25,804 bases of DNA from a virus. Positions 1 to 16,979 of the stretch are shown here, one piece after another. The position numbers and the translations under genes are program-made. Position 1 is the first letter of the stretch; every line of letters starts with the position of its first letter. A model generated the notes under the pieces. It saw nothing but the letters and a program-made list of their open reading frames with translations. It was not told where the DNA came from and did not search any database. Location: positions 1 to 25,804 of the IMG/VR virus record IMGVR_UViG_3300032286_001159; one strand, given 5' to 3'.

Positions 1-534
1 GGGGACAAAATTTTACACTTAGTGGATAGTGGCGTGTTTGTTACAATAAACCAAGTTATGGTACCCGAACATTTTACAGAACTATATGAAAGGTGTAATA
101 GATTTCACGGACGAGGTATTAATGTTACTTTAAAGCCACAGTCAAATGCACAGGCAAATAAAGTTGTAGATGGTTACACTACACACATGATTGAGATCAT
201 GCGGAACGGGTTTCCCCAGCATGTAGCAGAAGAACAGTTGCTACAGGTTAAACTAATAGATGATACGCAAAAAGTATGGTGGTTAGACCAAGCAGAACGG
301 TTTAATAGTTTTGAATTTAACCAGTTTAACGGCTGGACATGTAACAGCGGATATCAAGGTATAGTTATTAGAGAAAATGAAGTTAAACGCAGTTATAGTT
401 GTATCGACACTGTATTAGGGACCTTAACAGACGGATTTAAAATATTTGATTCACCCAAAATCTGTATTACAAAAATTTGTGTAAGTAGTGCAGATAGTAA
501 ATTACCAAAAAGCAAAATGAGAGAATTTAAATGA
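1..534 (+). CDS. Radical SAM protein, C-terminal fragment (5' end outside window)
   Basis: The frame is open from base 1, so this is the 3' part of a longer gene; the GTG at 22 is not a convincing start. The visible part lacks the CxxxCxxC cluster but keeps the C-terminal Cys-rich tail: a W-x-C-x-x-G-Y motif, then an S-Y-S-C segment about 20 residues on, then a CxxxxC pair followed by S-S-A-D. The same layout (WHC..., a beta strand ending in C, then a closing Cys cluster) ends the radical SAM proteins at 3572 and 4566, and probably binds an auxiliary Fe-S cluster. Its stop overlaps the next ATG by 4 nt (ATGA), so it heads or continues the plus-strand operon that runs to 4576. Calling it radical SAM is inference from the tail alone. 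Confidence 0.55.
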   Translation, partial: GDKILHLVDSGVFVTINQVMVPEHFTELYERCNRFHGRGINVTLKPQSNAQANKVVDGYTTHMIEIMRNGFPQHVAEEQLLQVKLIDDTQKVWWLDQAERFNSFEFNQFNGWTCNSGYQGIVIRENEVKRSYSCIDTVLGTLTDGFKIFDSPKICITKICVSSADSKLPKSKMREFK

Positions 535-1202
535 GATTAATAGCATTTGGATGTTCACTGACATACGGGCATGGGTTGTCCGATTGTATAATTCCACCAT
601 ATTCTCCAGGGCCAAGTCCTAGCAAACTAGCATGGCCTGCAATTATTGCATCTGAACTAAAAATAGAACTAATTAATCTTTCTACTCTCGGGTCGAGTAA
701 TAAAAGAATTTGGCATAATATTATTAATTTTAATTTTAAAACAGATGACATCGTGTTTATTATGTGGAGTTATCCTGAAAGGGACTGTATTTTAAAATCG
801 ACTAATAGTTACACAGACATAGGCAGATGGATCGACAACTGTAAAATATATTATAATAATTACTATTCCAAATATGACTCAGACACAATGACCAAATTAT
901 ATATAAATCATGCTAATCAATATCTAAATGACAAAAAAATTACAACATATAATTTAACAGTGAATAAAGAATTTAAACATATGTTTTTTTCATTTAATAA
1001 AAAAATACCATACATACCGGTGTGCATAGACAAACAATGTAATAAATTTGAATTAGGGTTAGACAATCTTCACCCCAATGAGGCTTGTCATAAAGAAGTT
1101 GCAAGACTAATAATGAATCAACTTAATATGGATAATAATATCCCGAAACAAAAAATATCTAAATTAAGATGGATAAAGTCTTTAATTAAATTTAAAATAT
1201 AA
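531..1202 (+). CDS. SGNH/GDSL-family hydrolase-like protein
   Basis: This 223-aa protein begins with a hydrophobic strand and the block I motif G-C-S-L (residues 7-10, nucleophile candidate Ser9), a common variant of GDSL. Near the C terminus D178-N-L-H181 gives the block V D-x-x-H pair. Gly54 in L-G-S-S-N fits block II. Block III (GxND) is not canonical; W-S-Y-P occupies its place at about 79-82, so the oxyanion hole may differ. Family members are esterases or acyl (de)transferases acting on lipids or glycan O-acetyl groups. There is no signal peptide, so it is cytoplasmic. It overlaps the preceding radical SAM gene by 4 nt and lies 1 nt before a GT8-like glycosyltransferase, which suggests work on a glycan or activated sugar. 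The C-terminal 20 residues are Lys-rich. Confidence 0.65.
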   Translation: MRLIAFGCSLTYGHGLSDCIIPPYSPGPSPSKLAWPAIIASELKIELINLSTLGSSNKRIWHNIINFNFKTDDIVFIMWSYPERDCILKSTNSYTDIGRWIDNCKIYYNNYYSKYDSDTMTKLYINHANQYLNDKKITTYNLTVNKEFKHMFFSFNKKIPYIPVCIDKQCNKFELGLDNLHPNEACHKEVARLIMNQLNMDNNIPKQKISKLRWIKSLIKFKI

Positions 1203-1203
1203 T

Positions 1204-1884
1204 ATGAGCATATTAAAAATTTATATAGGCTATGATAGCAGAGAAGAAGATGCATTTAAAGTGTGTCAACATTCTATTAAAAAACACACCTCTATTCCTG
1301 TAGAAATAATACCACTTAAACAGAAAGATTTACGGGCCTCGGGAATATATACAAGAAAGAGTGATTCCCTATCATCAACTGAATTTTCTTTTACTAGATT
1401 TTTAACACCTTATCTATCAAATTATTCAGGGGTTTCTATTTTTTGTGATTGTGATTTTATATGGACTACTGATATATCAGAGTTATTACATTGTTATGAT
1501 TCAAAATTTGCTGTTCAAGTAGTAAAAAGTATACATGTTCCCAACAATACTTTAAAAATGAATGATAGTGTACAAACATATTATGATAGAAAAAATTGGT
1601 CTAGTATGATATTATGGAATTGTGGGCACAAATCAAACCTATCATTGACTCCTAAAATTGTAAATAACGAATCGGGATTATATCTTCATCAATTTAAATG
1701 GTTAGATGACAATGACATTGGTAGTCTTGACAAATCATGGAATCATTTAGTAGATGTATATGAGCCGATTCATTTACCAAAAGCAATTCATTACACGAAC
1801 GGCGGTCCGTGGTTTGAAAATTATAAAAATTGTGGTTATGCCGATGTTTGGGTATCATATTATAATGAAATGATAAGTATTTAA
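1204..1884 (+). CDS. GT8-like glycosyltransferase
   Basis: This 226-aa protein has a GT-A-type layout. It starts with a beta strand and an I-G-Y-D-S-R-E motif (7-13) typical of the nucleotide-sugar pocket. A DxD metal-binding motif follows in F-C-D-C-D-F (D82, D84), and it ends with H-Y-T-N-G-G-P-W-F (H196 to F204), the His/GGPW element seen in GT8-type retaining transferases. Asp/Asn-rich segments around 168-184 (L-D-D-N-D and D-K-S-W-N) fit the sugar-binding end. Donor and acceptor cannot be told. The gene sits between an SGNH hydrolase and a methyltransferase with 0-1 nt gaps, so all are probably translated from one transcript. No membrane segment is visible. Confidence 0.7.
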   Translation: MSILKIYIGYDSREEDAFKVCQHSIKKHTSIPVEIIPLKQKDLRASGIYTRKSDSLSSTEFSFTRFLTPYLSNYSGVSIFCDCDFIWTTDISELLHCYDSKFAVQVVKSIHVPNNTLKMNDSVQTYYDRKNWSSMILWNCGHKSNLSLTPKIVNNESGLYLHQFKWLDDNDIGSLDKSWNHLVDVYEPIHLPKAIHYTNGGPWFENYKNCGYADVWVSYYNEMISI

Positions 1885-2478
1885 ATGAAAATAGATACCG
1901 AACACCTTCACTATTGGATGCAGGCGATTCGCAAAAGTAATGATCCCATGAGGACTATGGACGCATTTTGGTCAGGTCAAATTAAATCAAAAGAATGGTT
2001 AATATTAACACTAGAAAATTTAATACCGACTATAGTTAATATAGATATTTATGGAGGATGGGTAGGTGTTCTAGCTAGTATGTTATTTCAAAGCAAACTT
2101 ACCGTTAATACTATTAGAAGCATTGATGTTGATCCACAATGTGAGCCTATAGCAAATATAATGAATAACATAGAATTAAATAAGGGAAAGTTTAAAGCAA
2201 TCACCGCTAATATGATTAATGTCACTAGTACCGCAAATGTCGTTATAAATACAAGCTGTGAACATATATCACAAAACGAGTATAATGATTGGCTTAAAAA
2301 AATATCCGATGATAGTTTGTTAGTTTTACAATCAAATAACTATAAAATTTCAGAACACATCAGAGTTGCTAACACTGTAGAAGAATTTGTAGATCAATCC
2401 AACTTAAAAAAAGTATTGTTTAAAGAAGGATTATCCTTACCATTGTATAATAGATATATGATTATAGGATACAAATAA
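1885..2478 (+). CDS. Class I SAM-dependent methyltransferase-like protein
   Basis: This 197-aa protein fits a Rossmann methyltransferase. A helical N terminus with several Trp/Met precedes motif I D-I-Y-G-G-W-V-G (54-61). The acidic loop at the end of strand 2 follows as I-D-V-D-P (80-84). A later N-T-S-C-E-H segment after a V-V-I strand matches the motif IV position. It starts immediately after the glycosyltransferase stop, and its own stop overlaps the next ATG by one base (TAATG), so translation is probably coupled. The target (sugar, small molecule or protein) is unknown. Related small methyltransferases occur in large marine phages; this assignment is from memory of the family, not a search. 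Confidence 0.6.
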   Translation: MKIDTEHLHYWMQAIRKSNDPMRTMDAFWSGQIKSKEWLILTLENLIPTIVNIDIYGGWVGVLASMLFQSKLTVNTIRSIDVDPQCEPIANIMNNIELNKGKFKAITANMINVTSTANVVINTSCEHISQNEYNDWLKKISDDSLLVLQSNNYKISEHIRVANTVEEFVDQSNLKKVLFKEGLSLPLYNRYMIIGYK

Positions 2479-3563
2479 TGTTTAATTTTAACGAATTAAA
2501 TGATATTCATTTAGAAATTTCTAATAATTGTCAGGCTAGCTGCCCAATGTGTAATAGAAATATTAGAGGAGGACCTGATAACCCCTTACTATCCACATCT
2601 GATTGGACTTTAGAAGAATTCAAACAAATATTAAATGAAGAGGTCTTGAGACAACTACGCGGGTTTTATTTTTGCGGCAATTTTGGCGATCCGATGATGA
2701 ATGATGATGTGTTAGACATGATTGACTACAGTGTCAATATTAATAATAATCTCCACATAAGATTTCACACCAATGGTGGTGCAAGAAAAATTGAGTGGTG
2801 GCAAAATTTGGCAAAAGTACTACCTAAAAATCATCGAGTAATATTTGCCATTGATGGTTTAGAAGATACACATAATTTATACAGAATTGGAACCAATTAT
2901 GAAATAGTATTACGCAATGCCAAAGCTTTTATTAATGCAGGTGGCATTGCTGAATGGTGCTTTATTCGTTTCAAACACAATGAACATCAATTAGAAGAAG
3001 CACAACGCAGGGCAAAAGAATTTAAATTTGCTCAATTCACCTTTAAAAATAGTTCTAGATTTTTACTAGAACCAAAAATACAAGTAATCAATAAAAAGGG
3101 TGAGAATATTCATATCATTGAGCCAGCTTCTGATACTCCTATCAAATTCATTGATAAAAAAGTAATAGATAATATCAATGACTATATGGTCAATAGTACA
3201 ATCGATTGTCAAGTATTACACACCAAAGAAATATATATAGATGCATATAAAACAGTAATGCCATGCTGTTGGATAGCTCATATACCTTACACATACATTG
3301 AAAATGATGCTGTGGCCTCGATACGACAGACCATGGTCAACCAATATTATTCCATGATGGATAAGTTAGGTGGCGTAAAAAATATGAATGCTATACACCG
3401 TAGCATCAAAGATATTTTAAATAGCGAGAAATATCATACTATTTGGGATAATTATTGGAATCATGATAAACTTATTACATGCACACGAACATGCGGTAGG
3501 GGCAAGGCAGATGAATTTAGTAAATCTATAGATCAACAATCAGCTATTATAAAATTGGATTAA
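2478..3563 (+). CDS. Radical SAM protein with C-terminal Cys cluster (SPASM/twitch-like)
   Basis: This 361-aa protein has the radical SAM 4Fe-4S motif CxxxCxxC at C18, C22 and C25, preceded by an L-E-I-S-N-N strand. The usual G-G-E-P is replaced by G-N-F-G-D-P (67-72), a known variant. A second Cys set lies at C244, C263-C264, C335 and C339, matching a SPASM/twitch auxiliary cluster domain. Such enzymes cleave SAM to a 5'-deoxyadenosyl radical, and SPASM members often modify peptides or proteins. The start overlaps the methyltransferase stop by 1 nt; the next radical SAM gene starts 8 nt after the stop. The substrate is unknown. Confidence 0.85.
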   Translation: MFNFNELNDIHLEISNNCQASCPMCNRNIRGGPDNPLLSTSDWTLEEFKQILNEEVLRQLRGFYFCGNFGDPMMNDDVLDMIDYSVNINNNLHIRFHTNGGARKIEWWQNLAKVLPKNHRVIFAIDGLEDTHNLYRIGTNYEIVLRNAKAFINAGGIAEWCFIRFKHNEHQLEEAQRRAKEFKFAQFTFKNSSRFLLEPKIQVINKKGENIHIIEPASDTPIKFIDKKVIDNINDYMVNSTIDCQVLHTKEIYIDAYKTVMPCCWIAHIPYTYIENDAVASIRQTMVNQYYSMMDKLGGVKNMNAIHRSIKDILNSEKYHTIWDNYWNHDKLITCTRTCGRGKADEFSKSIDQQSAIIKLD

Positions 3564-3571
3564 TATAAAAA

Positions 3572-4576
3572 ATGTCACAAATTTTCCCAATACGAATTGT
3601 CTCAACACAGGAATCAAACACATTGCATGTCAGGTTTTTTCCAACCGATATTTGCAATTTTAGTTGTTCATACTGTTTTCCCGGTAGTGGTAATATAGGG
3701 AAATATCGATATCCTAAAAATGTTGGCACAGTAATTAAAAATTTTAAGATACTATTTGATATGTACATTAATAATTTGAATAAAAATAAATTCGATTTAT
3801 TTTTAGCCGGTGGAGGTGAACCCACAATGTGGCCCGGTATTGAAGAATTCTGTAGGGGAATAAAAGAAAAACATGATGTATATACAACTATCATAACAAA
3901 TGGAAGTAGAACCTTACGATGGTGGGAAGAAAATTGTGAATTTTTTGACGGTGTCACTCTCAGTTGCCATCATGAATTTGTTGATATTGATCATTATATT
4001 CAAGTTGCCGATCTACTATATAGCAGAGGAGTTAAGGTAAACGGGTTAATGTTAATGGATGCACAACATTGGGACAAGTGTGTTTCATATGTAGAAAAAA
4101 TGAAGAACAGTCAATATCCTTGGTTTATTCAAACTAAAGAAATTGTAGATTCTCCGGGTAAAGGAATGGATGCTTATACACCAGAGCAGATTGCATATAT
4201 TAATAATAGTTTAAAGCGGTTACCTGACAGTGACTGGTTATTAAAACATTTAGATATTTTGCGAGCACACGAAAGCCTAGCATTATTAAATGACGGGACC
4301 GCTTTTCCAGCAATGTCTCAATCAATCGTCGTAAATAAATGGAATAATTTCAAGGGGTGGCATTGCAATGTTGCGTTAGAAAGTTTAATGATTAATTACG
4401 ACGGGTCAGTGACTGGCAGTTGTCAAGAACCTATATTCAAAGATATTAATGTAAATTTATTTTCAGAAACATTTGAACAAGATTTTCAACCATTGATTGA
4501 TTTTAAATCAATAAGCTGCTCCCGTGACTGGTGCACATGTCAACCTGAAACGCATATTACCAAATTTAAACCTTAA
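3572..4576 (+). CDS. Radical SAM protein, WHC-type C-terminal Cys domain
   Basis: This 334-aa protein carries CxxxCxxC at C28, C32 and C35 and a G-G-G-E-P SAM-binding motif at about 80-84. The C-terminal domain has W-H-C (C265), then I-N-Y-D-G and C284, then C316, C321 and C323 (CTC), which are probable ligands of one or two auxiliary clusters. The same tail occurs in the convergent gene 4566-5453 and in the partial gene at the left edge, so these three form a subfamily. It is the last gene of the plus-strand operon. Its 3' end overlaps the end of the opposite-strand gene by 11 nt, with no terminator visible between them. Confidence 0.88.
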   Translation: MSQIFPIRIVSTQESNTLHVRFFPTDICNFSCSYCFPGSGNIGKYRYPKNVGTVIKNFKILFDMYINNLNKNKFDLFLAGGGEPTMWPGIEEFCRGIKEKHDVYTTIITNGSRTLRWWEENCEFFDGVTLSCHHEFVDIDHYIQVADLLYSRGVKVNGLMLMDAQHWDKCVSYVEKMKNSQYPWFIQTKEIVDSPGKGMDAYTPEQIAYINNSLKRLPDSDWLLKHLDILRAHESLALLNDGTAFPAMSQSIVVNKWNNFKGWHCNVALESLMINYDGSVTGSCQEPIFKDINVNLFSETFEQDFQPLIDFKSISCSRDWCTCQPETHITKFKP

Positions 4577-5453
4577 CTTTTGTTAAAGGTATGTCAGAGG
4601 CACAGGTACAAAAACTTCTAGTACAAACTACATTGTCAATGGGTTTGATAAAAGTACCGTTGTATATATTTCCCATACTACCGCCAACTCTACATGTTGC
4701 TCGGTATACTTCACCGTCATAATTAATCATTAAACTTTCTAATCCTGCGCTACAATGCCAATTCTTATACTGATTTAAATGTAATTTGATAATGTCATTA
4801 CTATGATATAATAAATTTTCATCAATGATGCAATTAGGTTGAACTGTTGCTATATTATTTAAAATATATTGAAGATCATTTTCAGCATATTTATTATCAT
4901 CAAATTTATCATGATCGTCCTCCGTCCATCTTATTCTTCTAATGACAAATGGCACTTTGTTTTCTTTTAATTTTTCTACGACAAATTTACATTCTTTCAT
5001 TTGTTCATGATGGGCCATAACATTGGTCATGACTGTTTTATCACTTTTATTATGCACTTCAATGATTGTATATAGTACTCTTTCCCAATCATATTCAAAA
5101 TGAAGACTATAGACATAATGATCACAATTAAGAGAACAATAATATTTTGGTTTTCGTGTACCGTTGGTAGTGACATTGATCCATACAATGCCCATTTCTT
5201 TACAATAATTTAATAGTTTGTCAAATTCAGGATGTGTCGTAGGCTCGCCGCCCGTTAAACTAAGTCTAATAGGTTTTTCTAGTGTTACTAGATTGTCTAC
5301 TGCCTGTCTTAGAGTTAATAAATCAGTGTGAGGACTGGTATTGTCATGAATTACAGAGGGGCAATAACTACAGTCATAGTTACAACGCTTACCCAAATTC
5401 CATTCAACTTTTATAGTGTCCTGATGTCCCCATCGGCTCTCTACTTTAAACAT
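4566..5453 (-). CDS. Radical SAM protein, WHC-type C-terminal Cys domain
   Basis: I place the start at the ATG at 5453 (M-F-K-V-E-S); the longer frame from 5483 would need a TTG and would overlap the upstream gene more. The 295-aa product has CxxxCxxC at C24, C28 and C31, T-G-G-E-P at 67-71, and a C-terminal set C234 (N-W-H-C), C254, C277, C282 and C284 (CTC). It is a paralogue of the product of 3572-4576. Its start overlaps the stop of the twitch-type radical SAM gene by 8 nt, making it third in a minus-strand operon: QueC-like, twitch radical SAM, then this gene. No clear Shine-Dalgarno is seen, so translational coupling is likely. Confidence 0.87.
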   Translation of the reverse strand: MFKVESRWGHQDTIKVEWNLGKRCNYDCSYCPSVIHDNTSPHTDLLTLRQAVDNLVTLEKPIRLSLTGGEPTTHPEFDKLLNYCKEMGIVWINVTTNGTRKPKYYCSLNCDHYVYSLHFEYDWERVLYTIIEVHNKSDKTVMTNVMAHHEQMKECKFVVEKLKENKVPFVIRRIRWTEDDHDKFDDNKYAENDLQYILNNIATVQPNCIIDENLLYHSNDIIKLHLNQYKNWHCSAGLESLMINYDGEVYRATCRVGGSMGNIYNGTFIKPIDNVVCTRSFCTCASDIPLTKVKV

Positions 5454-6705
5454 AGGTATTAAATTCAGGGGTGACCTTAACAAACGATTGATTTCTAGTT
5501 AGGTCTAATCGTTTATTAAATTCAATAGTATCGTCCCATAGGTTACTGAGATCCTTTGCCCAAATAAAATTAATATTATATTCTAATTGATTTCGTGTAT
5601 ATATCAAAAGTTCTGGATGTTGTTTTACCATTTTAAAATCTTTTACTTTCTCACTAACTTTGCGTAATCTATTAGTAACCTCATGTTTCAACTCCGTAGG
5701 CAATGTTTGAATACTTAGCAGATTAGGATAACTGACTCTATGAGTATGGAATATTATGCCCAAATCATCTAGAAAATACTCTACCAATTTGTCCATGTCC
5801 ATAATATTACTTACTTGCACAGTCATCGCGCCCACTATTCTACTTATATTAGGGATCTTTTGAACCGCTTTAATGTTTTTTATCAATGTATCCCAACTGG
5901 CATTGCCCCTTACATATTCATAACTATCCTTATACCCATCGATACTAACGTTAACCGCAATGCTACGAAATTTAGGCCAATATTCATATATATTTCTGTC
6001 TCCCTTGCCCAAAATACTCAAATTTGTAGCATATTTAATTTCTATTTGATTACCGTAGGGAGCTAACATATCTAGTATTCTATAGTGTTGCGGGTCCATT
6101 AATGGCTCCCCGCCGGCAAATTCAACTCGACGAAAATACGGCAATAATATTTTTAAGCTGTTCCACCAATTTGGGTTATCATGAAATTTATCTAAGAAAG
6201 GTTTACGCTCTAAGTTATGTTCTTCCACTAAATCAAAAATAATATTATTTTCTTTTTTGTAGAATTCTTTAATTTCTCCCCAATCATTCCAGCTAGTACT
6301 ATCGCCGGGGTGACACATACGACACTTTAAATTGCATAAATTATTTAATTTTAATTCTATAGTAGGAATCTCAAATGGCATTGAATAATCTTCCCGTAAT
6401 TTAGTCATGGTATCAGGATATAGAGTTACTCTAGATTCAGGTATTCGTTGCTCAATATGCCTAACTCTAAGACTTTCTACTCCTTGATCTTCTAAACTAA
6501 AGCATGGTTCGCACTCAGGTGGCCTCTCGTTATTTAGCAACTGTTTACGAATTCGTTTCATTGAATCATTATTCCATATTTCTTCTATTGAGTGTTTGTC
6601 AATGAATCCTACTGGATGACTGCGACAACAGGCTTTTAAGGCACCGTCTTCTCTTGTTGCCAATCCTGTAAATGGATGCATACAGAATGTTTTACTTTGA
6701 TTCAT
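5446..6705 (-). CDS. Radical SAM protein with N-terminal twitch/SPASM-like Cys region
   Basis: This 419-aa protein has an inverted layout. An N-terminal Cys region comes first (C8 in F-C-M-H-P-F, C26-C27, then C65 and C68), followed by the radical SAM core with C124, C128 and C131 and A-G-G-E-P at 197-201. The N-terminal motif 'FC..P...LATR.DG....CC' also opens the 7496 protein, so the two are paralogues on opposite sides of a divergent promoter. I recall such 'twitch domain-containing radical SAM' proteins from marine T4-like phages, where their substrate is not known. The start overlaps the QueC-like stop by 14 nt. Confidence 0.87.
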   Translation of the reverse strand: MNQSKTFCMHPFTGLATREDGALKACCRSHPVGFIDKHSIEEIWNNDSMKRIRKQLLNNERPPECEPCFSLEDQGVESLRVRHIEQRIPESRVTLYPDTMTKLREDYSMPFEIPTIELKLNNLCNLKCRMCHPGDSTSWNDWGEIKEFYKKENNIIFDLVEEHNLERKPFLDKFHDNPNWWNSLKILLPYFRRVEFAGGEPLMDPQHYRILDMLAPYGNQIEIKYATNLSILGKGDRNIYEYWPKFRSIAVNVSIDGYKDSYEYVRGNASWDTLIKNIKAVQKIPNISRIVGAMTVQVSNIMDMDKLVEYFLDDLGIIFHTHRVSYPNLLSIQTLPTELKHEVTNRLRKVSEKVKDFKMVKQHPELLIYTRNQLEYNINFIWAKDLSNLWDDTIEFNKRLDLTRNQSFVKVTPEFNTYV

Positions 6706-7426
6706 TAATTGCCCATGCTCTTTCTAAACACCAAAAACATTTATTACATATGGGCACATATTGATTTGGTTTGTAAGTGAGATAATTGATTCCTGCAAAC
6801 TCACCTTCGCAACTTCGAGTTTTTTCAAATAAATCCATAATATTATAATTGCGATATTGTTCTACCACCCAAGACTTATCAGTAAATCTAAAAGGATGAC
6901 TCACGACCGTACGCATATGCTGCATTAATTCCATATGTTTATTAGAATCATTTTTACTAATGTCCCGTTCAGACATACTGCCCTGAAGTTTAACTCTAGG
7001 ATTTTTAGTAACTGCGTTATAAAAGCAATCTATATTATTTATATGACAGATATATTCACTGTATGCTCTCTGCTGAATATTATCCCCACTAACCATTTTA
7101 CCATATTCATCTTTAATTGTTGGTCCTATATTTCCGTATTCCAAATCAGGAGCAATTAAATTAGTATATCTGATTATTAATATATCAAATTTAGATTTTA
7201 TTTCATCGAATACTCTTAAACTGTCATATTGCTGCCATGGTTTAGATTTCCACATTCTAGTATGACTAATACAATGAATTTTTATGTTTAACTTTCTTTC
7301 TTCGATTATAGTACAAAGCATATACAATAAAAGAGCAGAGTCTGCGCCACCGGATAATGCCACAGCAATGTTACTCCAAGTATTGTCAAAAGGTAATTCA
7401 ACCCCATGTATATTAATAACTTCCAT
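6692..7426 (-). CDS. QueC-like PP-loop ATP pyrophosphatase
   Basis: This 244-aa protein has the PP-loop S-G-G-A-D-S at 25-30 and a C-terminal four-Cys zinc-site pattern: T-R-S-C206, then C227-x-x-C230-x-x-C233 followed by L-E-R. A K-x8-N-Y-N-I-x9-T-R-S-C run before it matches the QueC order (K...G...T.SC...CxxC..R). QueC converts 7-carboxy-7-deazaguanine to preQ0 with ATP and ammonia. No QueD, QueE or FolE gene is visible here, and the following genes are radical SAM enzymes unlike small QueE. It may adenylate and amidate another carboxylate. It is the first gene of the minus operon, starting 29 nt after the predicted start point of a TAAATA-type promoter. Confidence 0.7.
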   Translation of the reverse strand: MEVINIHGVELPFDNTWSNIAVALSGGADSALLLYMLCTIIEERKLNIKIHCISHTRMWKSKPWQQYDSLRVFDEIKSKFDILIIRYTNLIAPDLEYGNIGPTIKDEYGKMVSGDNIQQRAYSEYICHINNIDCFYNAVTKNPRVKLQGSMSERDISKNDSNKHMELMQHMRTVVSHPFRFTDKSWVVEQYRNYNIMDLFEKTRSCEGEFAGINYLTYKPNQYVPICNKCFWCLERAWAINESK

Positions 7427-10273: not shown

Positions 10274-10822
10274 TTTAATTAGAAATTTTGATTCAATGAT
10301 GTCAATATTAGTTTGAGATAATTTAACACCAAAATCAATTTGATTAATTGTCGGTGTTTTGAGCCAAAACAGGCACCCATTAAATATATCTTCATAGGTA
10401 CAACCCGGATCTGTACTAGTATTTTCTGTTGTTCCTACATTTATTAACAATAAATTACTTTTTGAGTTATAAGATAATCGTTTATTCAACTGCATTAAGT
10501 TATTTTTATCCACTGAATAACCTTGTTTTTTACTAGGAATATCATAAAAATATGCTGCAACTGAACCCATAGTAATAATATTTTTAACATTATTATTTAA
10601 ATCGCTTAGTAATTTATATTGATAGCCCGCTTGCCCATATGCGTTATTAATAACTAAATCATAACCTAAAGCTTTTTGCAATATATCATCGTAGTTCTTA
10701 GTAAGGTCATACCCATTAGACCTAGATGCCCCGTCTACTACAAACCCTAGTTCTATAAATTTGTTATAAAAATATTGACCAATTCCACTAGTATGACCAG
10801 TAATTAAACACTTCAACTTCAT
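10244..10822 (-). CDS. Short-chain dehydrogenase/reductase
   Basis: This 192-aa protein has the SDR cofactor motif T-G-H-T-S-G-I-G at 8-15, N-N-A-Y-G (59-63, the NNAG position), a catalytic Ser at S87 in M-G-S-V-A-A-Y, and Y102-S-V-D-K106 (YxxxK). It is shorter than the usual 240-250 aa and the C-terminal substrate loop is reduced. The S-R-S-N loop after strand 2 (33-36) favours NADP(H). It follows the 10824 oxygenase gene after 1 nt on the same strand. It probably oxidises or reduces a sugar or an alcohol made by its neighbours. Confidence 0.8.
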   Translation of the reverse strand: MKLKCLITGHTSGIGQYFYNKFIELGFVVDGASRSNGYDLTKNYDDILQKALGYDLVINNAYGQAGYQYKLLSDLNNNVKNIITMGSVAAYFYDIPSKKQGYSVDKNNLMQLNKRLSYNSKSNLLLINVGTTENTSTDPGCTYEDIFNGCLFWLKTPTINQIDFGVKLSQTNIDIIESKFLIKLEDFPNKFF

Positions 10823-10823
10823 A

Positions 10824-11624
10824 TTAATATGTCTCTAAATGACTTATACCCAATGTCTTGCGAAACTCTTCTGTAAACTTTCCGTCAATACGTAGTCCAT
10901 AGCTTTGTTCCATAATCTTCTCACCGCCGTGCCAATCAACATCATTCCACCATGCGGCTCTTGTATTTAGATATACTTTGTTTTTCTTTTCAGGATCCCA
11001 CACGTAAAAAGCTTTCTTTGTATTAGGGCGTATATGTATAAATTCATTGCGATGTGGTTTTACCACATCAACTCCATTTTTAGCATCTAAGTCTCTATGT
11101 TCAAAAGGTATGCCATCCGCTTCGCAATGAAAGAATATTACACGGCCAATATGTTCGAACACAGTACCTTGTAATTGTTCGACCCATTTAACTACATTAG
11201 GAAAATATGCGGCCTCGTCAGTAAGTTTGCGTGGTGCAGTTCTATCATCCCATGATCCTTCTTCCCACAAGAAATAATAAATATACGGATCATATGCTCC
11301 CATAGCCATTTTTAAATAACGTGTAAATTTATTACGTTGTTTGTAATTATTAAAGTCTTTAAACAGATCAATACCGCCCAAGTATATAGGGTCTTCTTTT
11401 GGCAAAGACATAAACTCGTCCATAGCTTGATATATAGGCTTCCAACTAAGTTTATAGCTCATATTGTCAAAAGTATACCCAGGTTTCATCCAAGTACCCT
11501 CTTTGGCAAATTCTCTTGCCTCAGCAAAGCCTCTATAAATTTCAGGCTGCAAGTTATCAAACTCAATCATATTTAGATATGGTTCCATATCGATATACGG
11601 TTGATTATTAATCCCCTTAATCAT
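10824..11624 (-). CDS. Putative 2OG-Fe(II) oxygenase (AspH-like fold), 266 aa
   Basis: I use the ATG at 11624 (M-I-K-G), which has an AAAGG Shine-Dalgarno 7 nt upstream; the longer frame from 11639 needs a TTG. The metal site reads as H176-R-D178 after I-F-F-H-C-E-A-D, with H232 in D-W-H-G-G and R245 in Y-G-L-R-I-D. An H-R-N-E-F-I-H-I-R stretch (191-199) fits a core beta strand. The N-terminal 150 residues are helical and aromatic-rich and are not seen in the shorter oxygenases here. It leads a two-gene minus operon with the SDR. A hydroxylation followed by NAD(P)-dependent oxidation is a plausible pair of steps. Confidence 0.55.
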   Translation of the reverse strand: MIKGINNQPYIDMEPYLNMIEFDNLQPEIYRGFAEAREFAKEGTWMKPGYTFDNMSYKLSWKPIYQAMDEFMSLPKEDPIYLGGIDLFKDFNNYKQRNKFTRYLKMAMGAYDPYIYYFLWEEGSWDDRTAPRKLTDEAAYFPNVVKWVEQLQGTVFEHIGRVIFFHCEADGIPFEHRDLDAKNGVDVVKPHRNEFIHIRPNTKKAFYVWDPEKKNKVYLNTRAAWWNDVDWHGGEKIMEQSYGLRIDGKFTEEFRKTLGISHLETY

Positions 11625-11640
11625 ATTATTACCTTTCAAA

Positions 11641-11647: not shown

Positions 11648-11664
11648 CGTAACTAGCAGTGACA

Positions 11665-11671
11665 CTAAATA
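11665..11671 (+). promoter_or_regulatory. T4-type late promoter box (CTAAATA) in a 12-bp palindrome
   Basis: CTAAATATTTAG (11665-11676) is a perfect palindrome. Predicted initiation near 11677 gives a 16-nt leader with GAAAGG before the ATG at 11693. It is divergent from the minus box 18 nt away. Confidence 0.5.
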
Positions 11672-11692
11672 TTTAGAGTGAAAGGACATTAA

Positions 11693-12238
11693 ATGTTACA
11701 GCATATAGGAATATGTGATATTATCGATTGGGATGAACTTATTAGTTCAATCGAAGATCAGACACCTGCATACATAGGACCTAGACACCGAAAAGGTGAT
11801 GTTAAAGCTATCGGGATAGATGATGTTGCTATTAAATGGGAGGAAGCCGGTCATGTAACATGGGATAAGGGTGGCAATGCCAAATGGGATATGTTTTTAC
11901 CTGATATTAATTTTGATAGATCTATAGCTGAAATGTTTGCTGAGTGGGTAGGTTTATCAGGATATACTAATGTATGGATAAGCAGAGTGACTCCGGGTAA
12001 TATCGCTCCATTACATTGGGATGTGACTGATGATGAGTTAACATTAGAAAAGACTGAACACCAAAGATTTCATTGCCATATAAGCAGACCTACGCCCGGA
12101 CATGTGTTCATAGTCGAAGATATATGTTTGTATAATCAACCACATGGTTCAGTATATAAGTGGACTAGTAGAAAATCTTGGCACGCCGGAGGGAATTTAG
12201 GGTTTACACCTAAATATTTACTTAACATGTGGCATTGA
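11693..12238 (+). CDS. Putative 2OG-Fe(II) oxygenase (AspH-like), 181 aa
   Basis: This compact 181-aa protein has V-W-I-S-R-V-T-P-G-N leading to H108-W-D110 (metal HxD), R125-F-H127-C-H, and a distal W-H164-A-G-G-N before F-T-P-K. The order matches the aspartyl/asparaginyl hydroxylase type also seen at 8911. The N-terminal 90 residues are acidic and Trp-rich. GAAAGG gives a good ribosome site. The following gene (3 nt later) encodes the second kinase-like protein, reproducing the oxygenase plus kinase-like pair at 8911-10273. The basic residue for 2-oxoglutarate is less clear here (K174 is a candidate). Confidence 0.6.
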   Translation: MLQHIGICDIIDWDELISSIEDQTPAYIGPRHRKGDVKAIGIDDVAIKWEEAGHVTWDKGGNAKWDMFLPDINFDRSIAEMFAEWVGLSGYTNVWISRVTPGNIAPLHWDVTDDELTLEKTEHQRFHCHISRPTPGHVFIVEDICLYNQPHGSVYKWTSRKSWHAGGNLGFTPKYLLNMWH

Positions 12239-12241
12239 ATT

Positions 12242-12919
12242 ATGAATTACTATTACAATAATGTACCCGATATTGGACTATGTAGGAATAATCTCATTTA
12301 TACTAGTTTAATATCGGATGACAAAAAAACATTTGTACAATGGTATTACAATGATACAGATTATCATAAAGGGATGAATCAAGTGATTGATCCAAATAAA
12401 ATGGAAGAAAAATGGCAGCGAGAAGTAAAATATATTTCATTAATGAGTGAGCATTATCCAGAACATGTTCCTGAAATTTTAGATATAGATCAGAAAGAAA
12501 GAAAAATATATTTAAAAGTAGATGGTAATGATTTTTGGGAGAGAGCAAATTGCATGACCAATAATTACGATATTGTATTACCAAATTGGCAAGAACAAAT
12601 GATAGAAATTGTTAAAGCTCATAAAAGTTTAGGCTTATATAAATACAGTTTGCACCCATCTAGTTATTTTATTGTGAATGAAAAATTAAAATCGATTAAT
12701 TATTTCTTTACATATCATGAAGACGAACCAAATTTTAGCTTCAAAGATGTAGAAAGTCACATATATGTAACGCGGCAAAACGAGTTAAAAAAGCATATGA
12801 GTAAGTTTGGTGTCGTGTATGAAGAGCCACAGCCATTTGAAACTTTCATGAAACTAGCATGGACTAGTTTTAAAACCAACTACCCTGATGAGTTCATTAA
12901 TAATGTCATCGGTATCTAA
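12242..12919 (+). CDS. Kinase-like (possibly pseudokinase) protein, copy 2
   Basis: This 225-aa protein is related to the product of 9581. Shared landmarks in the same order are W-Q-R-E-V-K-Y (58-64), K-I-Y-L-K-V-D-G (88-95, against K-I-F-F-E-W-P-G), L-P-N-W-Q-E-Q-M (113-120), and G-L-Y-K-Y-S-L-H-P-S (131-140) followed by Y-F-I-V-N-E-K-L-K and N-Y-F-F. In a kinase fold these would be the hinge, catalytic loop and metal loop, but the catalytic Asp and DFG Asp are both absent, more degraded than in copy 1. It may be a pseudokinase or a binding subunit. Its 3' end overlaps the convergent gene by 4 nt. Confidence 0.42.
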   Translation: MNYYYNNVPDIGLCRNNLIYTSLISDDKKTFVQWYYNDTDYHKGMNQVIDPNKMEEKWQREVKYISLMSEHYPEHVPEILDIDQKERKIYLKVDGNDFWERANCMTNNYDIVLPNWQEQMIEIVKAHKSLGLYKYSLHPSSYFIVNEKLKSINYFFTYHEDEPNFSFKDVESHIYVTRQNELKKHMSKFGVVYEEPQPFETFMKLAWTSFKTNYPDEFINNVIGI

Positions 12920-13176
12920 ACGTTATAATAAATCCATTTGTGGTGATCTTCTTCAGATATTCCCTTTGCTCTTATTGTTTCGTAATACATTCTAGGACTG
13001 TGAACTAAGAGCACTAATTCTCCGTTCTGATAAATTCTAGTGCCATCTGCATCGCATTGAATTACCGCCATAACTAATCCTTGAATAAAAAATGACGGTA
13101 AGGATCCTTGTTCAAGGATCATATCCCCTTTAAAGATTTCGTAGTCTACTAACTGAATTCCCTCAAGTTTTTCCAT
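12916..13176 (-). CDS. Small protein of unknown function (86 aa)
   Basis: I do not recognise this protein. It is mostly beta-strand-like (V-M-A-V-I-Q-C, G-E-L-V-L-L-V-H) with a G-D-M-I-L segment and an acidic/His-rich end (E-E-D-H-H-K-W). No membrane segment or signal peptide is seen. A GGAGA Shine-Dalgarno at 13181-13185, inside the upstream gene, supports the ATG at 13176; it overlaps that gene by 28 nt and is probably translated from the same message. Confidence 0.6.
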   Translation of the reverse strand: MEKLEGIQLVDYEIFKGDMILEQGSLPSFFIQGLVMAVIQCDADGTRIYQNGELVLLVHSPRMYYETIRAKGISEEDHHKWIYYNV

Positions 13177-13862
13177 TTGTTCTCCGCAACATTCATTATT
13201 TGTTTAACATCAATATCGATATTGATGTTAAAATTTTCATAGTTTATGCTAGCGGCTGTTGCTAGCATATATAAAGTCCGTATTTTCTTTGCATAAAATC
13301 TAGGCAATGTACAATCCCATACTTTAAAATCTCCCCAGCAGTACTGCCCGAGTTGATTTCTGTATCTTTTATAAGGGCTTAGAACTTCGCCTGAAAAACC
13401 AACATTATGTTTTTTAACCACAGGATACATAATATCAAAACTAGCAGTAACACCATCAATATATTCTAAAAATGTATCAGTAGTTACTTCATGATTAGCT
13501 ATATCTTGTATCAGTTCTATACCCAAATCGTTTGGTCTAGATACTACATAATAGTACATTTTTATATTGTTTATAATAATGTGTTCAAAATGAAGTGGTT
13601 GTTCAATTGTATAATTAGGTAAATTAGCTAAATTAAAAGCGTCATACATGTCACAATGTATATCCCATTCTTTTTCATCAATGACATTATGAACTTTATG
13701 TACTTCACCATTAGGGGTAAAAACAAACCCTTTCTTTTTAATCGTATGCCGTAATATTACACCATAATCCTGCATTTCAGTGACATATAGACCACATGCC
13801 GCAAGGCCTTCTTTTTCATTTTGAAAAACTTTGTCAATTAATAATTGTTTATAATCTTGCAT
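13149..13862 (-). CDS. Unknown protein, tentatively kinase-like (237 aa)
   Basis: I do not recognise this protein. A strand with T-P-N-G-E-V-H-K-V could be a glycine loop plus Lys. Y-Y-Y-V-V-S-R-P-N-D resembles a hinge. K-K-H-N-V-G-F-S-G-E-V-L-S-P-Y followed about 15 residues later by C-W-G-D-F-K-V-W-D resembles a catalytic loop and a metal-binding DF motif. The similarity is weak and may be chance. The ATG at 13862 lies exactly 5 nt from an ATAAATA box and has no Shine-Dalgarno, so a leaderless message is possible. It overlaps the small downstream gene by 28 nt. Confidence 0.5.
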   Translation of the reverse strand: MQDYKQLLIDKVFQNEKEGLAACGLYVTEMQDYGVILRHTIKKKGFVFTPNGEVHKVHNVIDEKEWDIHCDMYDAFNLANLPNYTIEQPLHFEHIIINNIKMYYYVVSRPNDLGIELIQDIANHEVTTDTFLEYIDGVTASFDIMYPVVKKHNVGFSGEVLSPYKRYRNQLGQYCWGDFKVWDCTLPRFYAKKIRTLYMLATAASINYENFNINIDIDVKQIMNVAENKWKNLREFS

Positions 13863-13867
13863 ATAAG

Positions 13868-13874
13868 TATTTAT
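13868..13874 (-). promoter_or_regulatory. T4-type late promoter box (ATAAATA), leaderless geometry
   Basis: The minus strand reads GCATAAATA, then 5 nt, then the ATG at 13862. T4 spacing puts the start point on the A of that ATG. Confidence 0.5.
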
Positions 13875-13906
13875 GCCTATGATTTTAAATATGAATATCT
13901 ACAGTA

Positions 13907-13914
13907 TATAAATA
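13907..13914 (+). promoter_or_regulatory. T4 late promoter consensus TATAAATA
   Basis: An exact TATAAATA lies 6 nt before the ATG at 13921. Predicted initiation is 0-1 nt ahead of the start codon. It is divergent from the minus box at 13868. Confidence 0.55.
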
Positions 13915-13920
13915 TTATTA

Positions 13921-14837
13921 TGAAATATGAACCAAATTTGCGTCCTGATTGGAAGGAACCTGTAAATTGTAAGAAATTTAATTTGTCAAATAATATTTGC
14001 ATTGACTCGGAGATTAATTTATCAATTGATATTAGTTCAATGAATCAATATGCAGACGCTTTTACAGCTTACCACGCCGTTGGTAGTTATTATAAGGTAA
14101 AGATAGAACATATGGCAATAGGTTTCGGGATAGGTGAATTGTTTCCCAGAATGCTGTTGCACGGAAATCTAGGATCTATAACAATAGTAGAGCCAACTTG
14201 GCCCATGCCTAAAGTATACTTAACCCTAAATAACATACCTTACCATAGTATTTCTTATAGAGATTTTACTAATATATCGCATGATGAATTAAAACAAGGA
14301 AAAACTGATACATTGTATATTGCTAATCCTAATGGAATTAATGGTACGGTTTTAACAAAAGAAAATTTAATTCAAATATTACCTTATTACAAATTTGTGA
14401 TATGTGATGAAGCATATATGGATTTTAGTAATCATAGTATGATTGAGTTTTATGAAAAATATCCAAATTTGATTATACTTAAAACATTTAGTAAGTCGAT
14501 TGCAATGCCCGGACTAAGATTTGGATTTTGCATTTCTAGTAATAAAGAATTAATTAACCATCTGCAAATGAATCGTCCTAGTTCAGTAATGACCGGCGTT
14601 ACAGCTTCACTGGTACCAAAGCTAGTAGAGATGATTCCTGAACATGTAGCTAGAATGAAAATTACAAAAAACAAGATAGAATCAATTTATGATTGTGTTA
14701 GCAGTGAAGGCAACTATGTATTACTTAAAAAAAATTCCATGATAAACTATGACACTGCTCAAATTAAAGAAGTTAATCAGGGAATTTACAGAATGGCATT
14801 GTTTAATATGAATTTATATAATGAGATTATTAAATAA
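13921..14837 (+). CDS. HisC-like PLP-dependent aminotransferase (fold type I)
   Basis: I use the ATG at 13921 (M-K-Y-E-P-N-L-R-P); the longer frame from 13845 runs through both promoter boxes. The 305-aa product has N-P-N-G-I-N-G (136-142, the NPNxPTG position), D163-E-A-Y (PLP pyridine Asp and Tyr), T-F-S-K192-S (Schiff-base Lys), and R200 in G-L-R-F-G-F. These are marks of histidinol-phosphate aminotransferase and the CobD-like threonine-phosphate decarboxylases. It is shorter than the usual 350 aa and has a short N-terminal arm. No other his or cobalamin gene is nearby. It starts a three-gene operon with a radical SAM/SPASM gene (1-nt overlap) and a GNAT-like gene. Confidence 0.8.
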
Positions 14838-15721
14838 TGGATAAAGACGAATTCTTAAAGTACAGAGTTAAACAAGAGAATTTAATATACAGTAAAAGAA
14901 ATATTAGCGATCCGTTAACAAGCTTAGTATCAGTACAATTAAATACAACTGAATTGTGTAACAGAGCATGTACATTCTGCCCTAGAGTCGATTCAGACGC
15001 TTATCCTAATAGAAACTTGCACATGTCTATTGATACTGTTTATAAAATTACCAAAGATTTGAATAGTATTAATTATGTGGGCAGAGTATCGTTAAGTGGT
15101 TTTGGAGAACCTTTACTAGCAAAGAACTTTATTAACATTGTTAAAACAATCAGAAATAATTTACCAAACTGTAGTATAGATACCAATACCAACGGTGATC
15201 ACCTTAGTATAGAAACAGTCAATGAATTATATAGTGCAGGCATTGACATATTATATGTCAACTTGTATGATGGTCCAAATCAAGTAGATTATTTTACTAA
15301 ATTATTTGAAAATATAAGTACGGACAAATATATTTTTAGACCACATTGGAAAAATCAAAATACATATAACCTAATTATAAACAATAGGGCAGGCGCCATA
15401 CAAAGTACAGTAACCGGGATCATTCATCAACCATTAAAACAACAATGTTACCTTCCTTTTAGTCATGCAATGATTGATTATAACGGCAATTTAATTTTGT
15501 GCTCTAATGATTGGTCAAGAAATTATATAGTGGGATCATTGTTAGAAAGTCATATTGGAGACTTATGGATGAGTAATAGAATGAAAGATATTAGGTTAAA
15601 GTTGGCGAACTATAACCGTAATACTCACCCTTGCAGTATGTGCAATACCAACGGAACGCTGACAGGCAAATTAAGTTATAATATATTAATGAAATATTAT
15701 GAAAATACAAACCAACTTTAA
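14837..15721 (+). CDS. Radical SAM/SPASM protein
   Basis: This 294-aa protein has CxxxCxxC at C41, C45 and C48, S-G-F-G-E-P at 87-92 (GGEP position), and a C-terminal SPASM-like set: C204, C222 (I-D-Y-N-G-N-L-I-L-C), C266 and C269. A G-D-L-W segment (241-244) before the last Cys pair is typical of SPASM proteins. SPASM enzymes modify peptides, proteins or aminoglycosides such as 2-deoxystreptamine precursors. The start overlaps the aminotransferase stop by one base; the next gene begins 23 nt before this stop. An amino-sugar or amino-acid-derived substrate is possible given the aminotransferase. Confidence 0.87.
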   Translation: MDKDEFLKYRVKQENLIYSKRNISDPLTSLVSVQLNTTELCNRACTFCPRVDSDAYPNRNLHMSIDTVYKITKDLNSINYVGRVSLSGFGEPLLAKNFINIVKTIRNNLPNCSIDTNTNGDHLSIETVNELYSAGIDILYVNLYDGPNQVDYFTKLFENISTDKYIFRPHWKNQNTYNLIINNRAGAIQSTVTGIIHQPLKQQCYLPFSHAMIDYNGNLILCSNDWSRNYIVGSLLESHIGDLWMSNRMKDIRLKLANYNRNTHPCSMCNTNGTLTGKLSYNILMKYYENTNQL

Positions 15722-16283
15722 ACTAGTAGAATTCAATCATAATTTAGAACTAAATGAATTCTATGATGATGCACTGCAAAGAGGATATATAAATAATTCT
15801 AGCCAATCAAAAATGATTGATTGTTTTAAGCATGAACGTGCTTGGAAAGTTTGGATATTATATGAAAATCAAACTCCTTGCGGCTCAGTGGGATGCCATT
15901 CCTTAGATATAATGGGCCCGAATGCATATAGAATATGTGCAAGAACATGCTTTTTCCCTGAATATAATTTAAACAAAGGATTAATAGCTAAGAAAAATGA
16001 AATATGTCAACACCAACATGTTGTACCACAATTTTATATGATTGCGGGTATTGAATGGGCTGGATTAGATAAAGACTTTTATATAACAACAAACAACAGT
16101 AAAGAAGCATCTAATCGTAAAGTACACACTGTTTGGGCCCCAATATTAGCAGAAATGGGTATACTAGAGAAAATGATTGAACAAAATTATAGAGGACATA
16201 TGCAAACTTTTTGGAAACTTAATACAAATGTTTTTCTAGAATCAATTAATAGTAATCATAGATGGTTACTTCGACCATCGTAA
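15699..16283 (+). CDS. GNAT-like acyltransferase candidate
   Basis: This 194-aa protein is not recognised firmly. A W-K-V-W-I-L-Y-E-N-Q-T-P-C-G-S-V-G strand-turn-strand (49-65) followed by a Cys-rich strand (R-I-C-A-R-T-C-F-F-P) resembles the N-terminal part of a GNAT fold. The segment Y-I-T-T-N-N-S-K-E-A-S-N-R-K with a following L-A-E-M-G-I resembles the region where GNATs place Asn and a G-F loop. A clear acetyl-CoA loop (Q/RxxGxG/A) is not evident. It overlaps the upstream radical SAM gene by 23 nt and ends the operon just before a strong palindrome. Confidence 0.4.
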   Translation: MKIQTNFKLVEFNHNLELNEFYDDALQRGYINNSSQSKMIDCFKHERAWKVWILYENQTPCGSVGCHSLDIMGPNAYRICARTCFFPEYNLNKGLIAKKNEICQHQHVVPQFYMIAGIEWAGLDKDFYITTNNSKEASNRKVHTVWAPILAEMGILEKMIEQNYRGHMQTFWKLNTNVFLESINSNHRWLLRPS

Positions 16284-16301
16284 ACTGTTTAGTTAATAAA
16301 A

Positions 16302-16319
16302 TAGGGCTTTAAAGCCCTA
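16302..16319. terminator. Palindromic terminator between convergent genes
   Basis: TAGGGCTTTAAAGCCCTA is a perfect 18-nt palindrome lying between the ends of the 15699 (+) and 16347 (-) genes. On the minus strand it is followed by TTTTATTAA; on the plus strand the tail is A-rich, so it should work better for the minus gene. Confidence 0.6.
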
Positions 16320-16346
16320 AAATAAATTTAATAGGTGCAAATTTAA

Positions 16347-16979
16347 TTAAAGATTATTTAACATATACGAATAGTCACCTGTATTGTCTTTATTCCCAAC
16401 TAAAAAAATTCTTATTGATTGTTGGTTTTCAACACTATGAATTGAATCAAACTTCAGCCAATACCAAGAATTTTCTTCAAGGCAATTTTCATCTACTTTG
16501 TAGATTTTACTGTAAGGTATACAACTATAATCGATTATGGGCAGGTCTTTAAACTCGTCTTTGGGTTCCCACCAAACTGTAGTAACATTGTCTCCTCCTG
16601 ATTTTAATAAAAGTTGAAATCCGTTTTTGCGTCTAGAAATATCATCGATATGAGGCGCACAATAGGGACCCCCTTCTACAAATAATAACCCATAGTAATC
16701 AAAAATATTTATTAAATTAGTTTGTTTAAAAAATTGTTTAACTCTGTTATCTAAATAAGGAGACATATGCAAATAAGACACTCCCCCTGATTGGTTATAA
16801 AAATTCATATCCTCATCCTTGAGATAGTTTAAACTATTTTGATTTTCTAATTCAAACCGTCTATGGTGTAATACTCTATTATTCTGTTCGCGTTCAAAAA
16901 TTATTATAGCTTCTTCAACTAAATCTTTTTTCAAATCTTCAGGAAGAACCGGCATTTCTGTCATATGTTTAAAGTACAT
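16347..16979 (-). CDS. Putative 2OG-Fe(II) oxygenase, 210 aa
   Basis: In this protein E-G-G-P-Y-C-A-P leads to H110-I-D112 (metal HxD), then a basic pair R116-R117, strand residues F-Q-L-L-L, and later S-I-H181-S-V-E-N with R190 in S-I-R-I-F-L. This gives a full 2-His-1-Asp triad plus a candidate 2-oxoglutarate Arg. The segment G-L-L-F-V-E-G-G is the strand before the metal site. The first 90 residues are helical and charged. Shine-Dalgarno AGGAA precedes the ATG. It stands alone between two hairpins, and no TAAATA box is visible upstream, unlike most leading genes here. Confidence 0.55.
   Translation of the reverse strand: MYFKHMTEMPVLPEDLKKDLVEEAIIIFEREQNNRVLHHRRFELENQNSLNYLKDEDMNFYNQSGGVSYLHMSPYLDNRVKQFFKQTNLINIFDYYGLLFVEGGPYCAPHIDDISRRKNGFQLLLKSGGDNVTTVWWEPKDEFKDLPIIDYSCIPYSKIYKVDENCLEENSWYWLKFDSIHSVENQQSIRIFLVGNKDNTGDYSYMLNNL

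Follow-up and report, generated by a model that had tools for sequence, protein, structure and literature searches.

A recurrent cassette of radical SAM, oxygenase, QueC-superfamily and kinase-fold genes beside the tail-fibre locus of uncultured T4-like jumbo phages

Introduction

Do the many enzyme genes packed into one end of a virus record form a single system, and what could such a system make? The question was raised by the linear virus record IMG/VR IMGVR_UViG_3300032286_001159 (25,804 bases), which was analysed at its full length and is called the window below. The block under study lies at positions 1–16,979. The sequence-only reading of this block had listed seven radical SAM proteins, a QueC-like ATPase, four Fe(II)/2-oxoglutarate (2OG) oxygenases and several sugar- or amine-type enzymes, and had taken them for one dedicated biosynthetic or modification system in a combination that it could not name. 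In this study, the block was compared with related viral loci, and its proteins were assigned by profiles, motifs and predicted structures.

Results and Discussion

Recurrence of the cassette families

IMG/VR was searched with rS5 and PPl (family names as in Table 1), which gave 87 loci, and every one of these was included in gene calling and clustering. Removal of near-duplicates by rS3 similarity left 52 loci. The loci were at most about 21 kb long and many were truncated, so the family counts are lower bounds; locus selection favoured those of rS5, PPl and rS3. Thirteen families of the window co-recurred, each in 30–52 of the 52 deduplicated loci, despite a scrambled gene order. Among the radical SAM families, rS4 was found in 52 loci, rS5 in 51, rS1 in 50, rS0 in 39, and rS2 in 33. 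The other core families were OG1 (49), MT (44), PPl (40), OG2 (36), OG3 (35), KinA (32), and KinB (30). The best family outside the cassette reached 17 of the 52 loci. Independent assortment of the genes, the pattern that would speak against a single system, was tested and not found.

Gene order was shuffled, with 113 distinct adjacencies among 576. The preferred neighbours were rS3–rS4 (38), PPl–rS4 (34), rS2–rS3 (25), KinA–OG3 (20), and KinB–OG2 (16). Because the order is scrambled, descent of one fixed cluster is insufficient alone, and selection holding the set together can explain the co-recurrence. The block is a core with accessory genes, not a chance collection.

The core also includes a pyridoxal-phosphate (PLP)-type enzyme that is absent from the window and occurred in 33 of the 52 loci; related cassettes carried this different type in place of the HisC-like aminotransferase. 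Another oxygenase occurred in 32 loci, and three or four oxygenases are counted as core. The accessory part varied widely. Extras in other cassettes were B12-binding radical SAM proteins, TrsS/HMPTM-like radical SAM proteins, and more oxygenases, some of the AspH type by Pfam. In a comparison of 168 loci, the putative glycosyltransferase, the HisC-like aminotransferase, and the 86- and 237-residue proteins of the window had no relative, and rS6 (14 matches at about 30% identity) and OG4 were peripheral to the core. A precursor peptide had been proposed as a further check, and no recurrent open reading frame (ORF) of 35–110 residues restricted to the cassette was found. Only two small families turned up, one of signal-peptide proteins and one AbrB-like, and both lay mostly outside the cassette. 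A small protein like translation initiation factor IF-1, of a family in 18 loci, was seen near a cassette (locus L191, 2980–3198). A TSGTT-type adenylation motif, as in acyl-adenylate-forming enzymes, was seen at cassette edges (L208, 19242–19886; L211, 6942–7589). No defence system was found in the search for such systems; there was only core-domain similarity below cut-off.

Carrier phages, fibre-gene neighbourhood and exchange

The largest records encode a T4-type gp23 and a terminase. The carrier gp23 was about 70–72% identical to that of Sinorhizobium phage Phosso, Vibrio phage 2.275.O and Pseudomonas phage PA5oct, and the carriers are therefore jumbo T4-like phages. Seven of eight scanned records (102–335 kb) had 7–14 radical SAM matches each; the eighth, a record without the cassette, had none. 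IscU was encoded in 10 of 44 records, the four largest among them, as is also the case for the Tara T4-like genomes of Nishimura et al. Cultured phages were searched with OG2, PPl, KinB and rS0, and no match was found.

The neighbourhood was read by extending outward from the cassette along long records. A gene with an Mtd_N-type tail-fibre start lay 0–5 kb from the cassette end in at least 24 records, a count based on a sequence pattern; in a Pfam check of three of these proteins, two were over the cut-off and the third was slightly under it. On the opposite side of the cassette, fibre-like ORFs reached lengths of about 2,570 residues, and the one tested matched T4_gp9_10_N. Between the fibre genes and the cassette, several records had genes for a UDP-sugar dehydrogenase, an epimerase, a C-methyltransferase, a class-III aminotransferase, and a KDO8P/DAHP-type synthase. 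The synthase-type gene was located in L202 (13295–14134; DAHP_synth_1, 4e-72) and L207 (12983–13813). ORFs with a DxD motif at the fibre–cassette junction were considered as glycosyltransferases; neither Pfam nor hhalign backed this label, and it was dropped.

Exchange of such gene sets has a precedent. Campylobacter phages CP220 and CPt10 each carry a cluster of five radical SAM genes with an amidinotransferase gene; the clusters are unrelated in sequence and functionally equivalent, and were described as an "interchangeable module" (Timms et al. 2010, PMC2853527). In the right half of the window, several proteins were 92–95% identical to those of the large phage records G042 and G043. Past the shared Mpo1 and OMP genes, G043, the nearest relative, encodes an N-terminal-twitch radical SAM protein and a B12 radical SAM protein along with an OG1-like oxygenase, ORFs of methyltransferase type, and a protein that has an SGGxxS loop. 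The window's own site, the OMP–Mpo1 junction, is thus occupied there by a different set of enzymes of these kinds, as in the CP220-type module swap. An unusual paralogue array was also seen: five tandem N-terminal-twitch radical SAM genes beside fibre-type ORFs (G043, 121008–127319; G042, 34033–40347, locus L193).

Gene layout of the window

The first 17 kb are 99% coding, and the features of the block are listed in Table 1. Nine same-strand overlaps of 1–28 bases were present in the block. There were also seven strand switches, which divide the block into eight transcription blocks, so that it is not a single operon. The window had no match in Rfam or tRNA scans.

Table 1. Genes of the block at positions 1–16,979 of the window, with assignment, evidence and class.
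Name	Position	Strand	Assignment	Evidence	Class
rS0	1–534	+	Radical SAM, C-terminal part, W-C / C-x-C tail	Cut by contig end	Core
	531–1202	+	SGNH/GDSL hydrolase	PF00657 E=7.7e-6, over cut-off; 16 loci	Accessory
	1204–1884	+	Putative glycosyltransferase	DxD-type motif only; phrog_28018 (unknown function) 7e-55	Accessory
MT	1885–2478	+	Putative methyltransferase-like protein	No profile match	Core
rS1	2478–3563	+	Radical SAM	PF04055 5.5e-8	Core
rS2	3572–4576	+	Radical SAM with W-C tail	PF04055 1.1e-10	Core
rS3	4566–5483	-	Radical SAM with W-C tail	PF04055 1.3e-11; start 5453 or 5483	Core
rS4	5446–6705	-	N-terminal-twitch radical SAM	NF033640 1.5e-100, 337 bits (cut-off 170)	Core
PPl	6692–7426	-	QueC-superfamily PP-loop enzyme	SGGxDS and C(x)20CxxCxxC	Core
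rS5	7496–8914	+	N-terminal-twitch radical SAM	NF033640 1.3e-118, 397 bits (cut-off 170)	Core
OG1	8911–9594	+	2OG-Fe(II) oxygenase-like	HxD...H in 54 relatives; profile match to PF05118-type families	Core
KinA	9581–10273	+	Divergent kinase-fold protein	Paralogue of KinB (hhalign 99.9%)	Core
	10244–10822	-	SDR-like oxidoreductase	Weak: NCBIfam E=0.003, PHROG E=0.005	Accessory
OG2	10824–11639	-	2OG-Fe(II) oxygenase	Predicted fold and triad	Core
OG3	11693–12238	+	2OG-Fe(II) oxygenase-like	HxD...H in 52 relatives	Core
KinB	12242–12919	+	Pseudokinase-like protein	AlphaFold pLDDT 95.7	Core
	12916–13176	-	86-residue protein	No profile match	Accessory
	13149–13862	-	237-residue protein	No profile match	Accessory
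HisC-like	13845–14837	+	Class I/II aminotransferase	PF00155 2.2e-21; PDB HisC 4e-16; start maybe 13920	
rS6	14837–15721	+	Radical SAM with C-terminal SPASM domain	PF04055 2.6e-12, PF13186 1.2e-10	Accessory
	15699–16283	+	Conserved cassette protein ("GNAT-like" label)	No profile match; 21/52 loci, often adjoining KinB	
OG4	16347–16979	-	Putative 2OG-Fe(II) oxygenase	HxD and distal H by eye; no profile match; two weak relatives	Accessory

The labels of the earlier reading fared unevenly. The QueC-like, SGNH hydrolase and HisC-like aminotransferase labels held, as did the SPASM and N-terminal-twitch architectures. The short-chain dehydrogenase/reductase (SDR) label drew only weak matches. The GT8-like (1204–1884), methyltransferase (1885–2478) and GNAT-like (15699–16283) labels were not backed by any Pfam or other functional profile match.

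Other genes lie outside the block. An Mpo1-like gene of the 2-hydroxy-fatty-acid dioxygenase family (17713–18339, +) scored slightly under the Pfam cut-off and was 92–94% identical in related jumbo phages. A 478-residue protein (21103–22539, -) has a signal peptide and a very long low-complexity stretch rich in Asn, Ser and Thr, and is conserved in related phages. At 22593–24363 (-), a metallophosphoesterase gene (LpxH/PlcP-like; PDB matches are weak LpxH) adjoins a GT4 glycosyltransferase gene. The two resemble the PlcP/Agt pair, with which marine bacteria replace phospholipids with glycolipids when phosphate is limited. The pair was also present in G042 and G043, and G010 has genes like it. 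An ORF truncated by the window end (25230–25804, -), which lies upstream of the PlcP-like gene, encodes a C-terminal part that may be read as a PhoX-type phosphatase; it had no Pfam match. The PhoX-like reading, if true, fits the phosphate theme.

Radical SAM proteins

Seven radical SAM proteins had been counted. Six are complete ORFs over the PF04055 cut-off, and the seventh, rS0, is a C-terminal fragment that was judged through its relatives: identity reached 74% with a family in which 52 of 53 complete members have CX3CX2C. Across nine families, CX3CX2C was present in 534 of 545 complete members. The NF033640 matches of rS4 and rS5 span the full length, and relatives of rS5 were found at 59 viral loci. 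By hhalign, rS0, rS2, rS3 and a further family, rS32, formed one clade, and rS4 and rS5 another. rS1 had a distant match to the radical SAM cluster of Campylobacter phage CP220. A viperin (pVip) identity for rS2 and rS3 was rejected: the scores were 43–47 bits against an NCBIfam cut-off of 180, and the similarity was confined to the radical SAM core.

2OG-Fe(II) oxygenases

Three of the four oxygenases proposed earlier, OG1, OG2 and OG3, were well supported, and OG4 was assigned by motif. OG1 and OG3 are supported at the active site by the triad, and the fold was modelled for OG2. OG2 had no Pfam match; its AlphaFold model (pLDDT 89) had a 2OG-Fe(II) oxygenase fold by Foldseek and VIA-align, with a VIA Z of about 11 against AspH, PHD2, ALKBH5 and proline hydroxylases. 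HxD was kept in 7 of 8 oxygenase families. In L206, one cassette had about ten genes of the 2OG-oxygenase family in a stretch of about 14 kb, an extreme local expansion.

QueC-like PP-loop enzyme

In 23 relatives of PPl, SGGADS and the zinc-type cysteines C206, C227, C230 and C233 were invariant, and PHROG gave a QueC-like match at E=2e-5. The published signatures of QueC are SGGxDS, C(x)8CxxCxxC, YxQxHxxE, VPxRN and YPDC (PMC13329287). PPl shares the SGGxDS ATP loop with canonical QueC, whereas its cysteine spacing is C(x)20CxxCxxC; that of QatC is C(x)19. YxQxHxxE, VPxRN and YPDC were all absent from the consensus of the 23 relatives. VSGDN stands at the VPxRN position, as judged by eye, and the essential Arg is therefore missing from PPl. 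The SGGxDS P-loop and the C(x)nCxxCxxC zinc-type motif are common to the QueC superfamily, which includes QatC and Cap9 (PMC13329287, PMC13279940). The PADLOC models, which include QatC/Cap9 defence, gave no match to PPl at E 0.001. The PF06508 score of the window PPl was 15.2 bits against a cut-off of 22, and one relative, neighbouring stretches included, scored 24.6 bits. These motifs suggest that PPl is not QueC itself and is a divergent QueC-superfamily enzyme that probably adenylates a carboxylate.

A scan of GTDB contigs with a PP-loop alignment gave, as bacterial sources of PPl, only unrelated PP-loop stretches of 36–56 residues among the matches listed. Neither PPl nor OG2 had a relative in a PDB sequence search. 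The 314-residue SGGxxS protein of G043 was rejected as a PPl relative, with an alignment limited to the loop.

The preQ0 genes of the carriers were also searched. PTPS was present in 10 of 19 records and FolE in one stretch, with no clear canonical QueC; no complete preQ0 pathway was found among these records, which are fragments. The PTPS/QueD-like and FolE genes were located in L192 (9673–10200), L202 (14157–14642), L196 (10904–11491) and L200 (16932–17618), and suggest pterin or deazaguanine chemistry apart from the cassette.

Kinase-fold pair

A kinase-fold paralogue pair, KinA and KinB, had been overlooked by the earlier reading. The KinB model had a protein-kinase fold (Z about 12.5, best Z 12.9; root-mean-square deviation 3.3; 185 residues). 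The KinB family has K-x-S at the HRD site, mostly N for the DFG Asp, and no conserved VAIK Lys. In KinA, HRD is replaced by K-x-[S/T/A], and the DF/DY-type Asp is kept in part. An active protein kinase was rejected for the KinB family, in which the fold is present and the catalytic residues are replaced. The pair may act as a scaffold or in a different nucleotidyl reaction.

Relation to known systems

Radical SAM-rich exchangeable modules in T4-like phages are already known. CP220 and CPt10 have 11–12 radical SAM genes per genome (PMC2853527). The CP220 cluster adjoins genes for baseplate lysozyme and PAAR, and two of its proteins have nucleotide-sugar-transferase domains. Members like rS1 and rS3 were distantly detectable in it at about 24% identity, whereas no 2OG, QueC-like, kinase-fold, MT or N-terminal-twitch radical SAM family was detected in the CP220 stretch searched. 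Vibrio phage K566/K567 has five rS4/rS5-type radical SAM genes alternating with glycosyltransferase-like genes, one of them GT8 by Pfam; identity to the window was 25%, and the remaining core was not found in K566/K567.

The 183-kb T4-like genome TARA_ERS488813_N000010 has an A-type carrier gene and 12 radical SAM genes (Nishimura et al. 2017, PMC5332604). That paper treats the radical SAM proteins as iron-sulphur (Fe-S) proteins and, in the part consulted, describes no cassette, oxygenases or fibre-locus position. The present carriers are like it, by description only, in joining phage-borne Fe-S genes (here IscU) with many radical SAM genes (here 7–14). The T4-like cyanophage P-SSM2 has 24 lipopolysaccharide (LPS) genes (PMC2984593); phage-borne sugar and surface chemistry would be common to such clusters and the cassette, but the window is dominated by radical SAM and 2OG enzymes and has no complete sugar pathway. 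Literature searches of open-licence papers found no description of the conserved cassette. Relatives of the combination that could not be named thus exist. Within the papers searched, what appears to be new is a conserved core that combines oxygenases with a QueC-superfamily enzyme and two pseudokinases, its presence in dozens of uncultured jumbo phages, and its fibre locus.

Possible function

Radical SAM enzymes perform oxygen-independent C-H chemistry, and 2OG-Fe(II) oxygenases perform oxygen-dependent C-H chemistry. Our tentative preference is that T4-like jumbo phages carry an exchangeable island for chemical tailoring, the variable product of which could decorate the phage adhesin or the host surface. 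The core (radical SAM enzymes, 2OG oxygenases, QueC-superfamily ligase/amidase, MT-like protein, PLP aminotransferase, and two kinase-fold adaptors) would modify one substrate class by C-H functionalisation and ligation, and phage-specific accessory enzymes would set the variant of the final structure. Since the island lies at tail-fibre genes, the most likely substrate would be a decoration (glycan or side chain) on the phage adhesin, with the host cell surface as the alternative. The phage may benefit from varied adsorption, or from masking that counters host defences or competitor phages. The swift exchange of equivalent enzyme sets beside adhesin genes, with sugar enzymes near, resembles loci for variable surface structures. 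A shared pathway for all core enzymes is an inference, and so are its substrate, the attachment of the product to virion or surface, and the gain for the phage.

Several points weigh against a decorating island. No enzyme of the block has a known substrate. The window core has no sugar-nucleotide or glycosyltransferase genes, and the window's own glycosyltransferase call has no profile support. AspH- and PHD2-like folds act on proteins, and peptides are often the substrates of radical SAM/SPASM enzymes, so the reading need not be confined to glycans. No recognised fibre gene lies within the window itself. The fibre adjacency is a raw count, its Mtd_N part is pattern-based, and hypervariable cargo could simply gather there.

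The tail-fibre proteins themselves could be the target. The island would then be a viral factory for post-translational modification, in which radical SAM and 2OG enzymes, guided by the pseudokinases and the QueC-type ligase, put novel C-H-derived groups directly on these proteins. This reading is considered unlikely; if true, a cassette swap would alter adhesin chemistry and leave the adhesin sequence unchanged.

The island could also alter the infected cell, by superinfection exclusion, masking or metabolic support, through a product unattached to the virion: an unusual sugar, a lipid head group or a soluble metabolite. The nearby KDO8P/DAHP-type synthase, UDP-sugar dehydrogenase and epimerase genes are in line with this, as are the desaturase-like ORFs of some cassettes and the PlcP- and Agt-like genes of the same phages. 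The LPS genes of P-SSM2 (PMC2984593) and the metabolic benefit proposed by the CP220 authors (PMC2853527) point the same way. However, fibre-gene adjacency in very many records and the lack of a complete sugar-nucleotide or lipid pathway make it doubtful.

Loose hypervariable cargo near fibre genes, with unrelated roles in Fe-S metabolism, cofactors and nutrition, was judged improbable to a similar degree. The order is shuffled, accessories vary widely, many 2OG paralogues are possible per record, and unrelated genes do gather in phage hyperplastic regions (PMC2984593). Against this stand the same core in dozens of divergent loci, far above the next best neighbour, and the conserved pairs rS3–rS4, PPl–rS4, KinA–OG3 and KinB–OG2.

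A 7-deazaguanine-type base, made by PPl and a QueE-like radical SAM enzyme for DNA or RNA, or conjugated to protein as proposed for QatC and Cap9, is quite unlikely. Points in its favour are the QueC motif set of PPl, the 10 of 19 records that have PTPS/QueD-like genes, the FolE of record G021, and the lack of canonical QueC in most records. However, PPl and PTPS do not track, and G042 (335 kb) has PTPS and neither PPl nor QueC. The missing Arg and the lack of a PADLOC match also speak against it, and preQ0 synthesis has no role for the twelve other core families. A preQ0 operon was judged improbable among these fragmentary records, as PPl lacks the canonical QueC motifs and does not track with PTPS.

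An island of the ribosomally synthesised and post-translationally modified peptide type, with a small peptide encoded by the phage as the substrate of maturation by radical SAM, oxygenase and PP-loop enzymes, is very unlikely: SPASM and twitch radical SAM proteins are typical peptide maturases, but no conserved short ORF (at least 35 residues) was confined to the cassette.

Conclusions

Decoration of adhesins or host surfaces by the proposed tailoring island would give phages a second route to varied attachment, by chemistry instead of sequence. It would also account for an oddity known since 2010, namely that some T4-like phages encode a dozen radical SAM enzymes as well as an Fe-S scaffold of their own. 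The compact core consists largely of undescribed enzyme families (13 in the window) whose partnerships are conserved, the pseudokinase pair among them, and the question can thus be tested at the bench.

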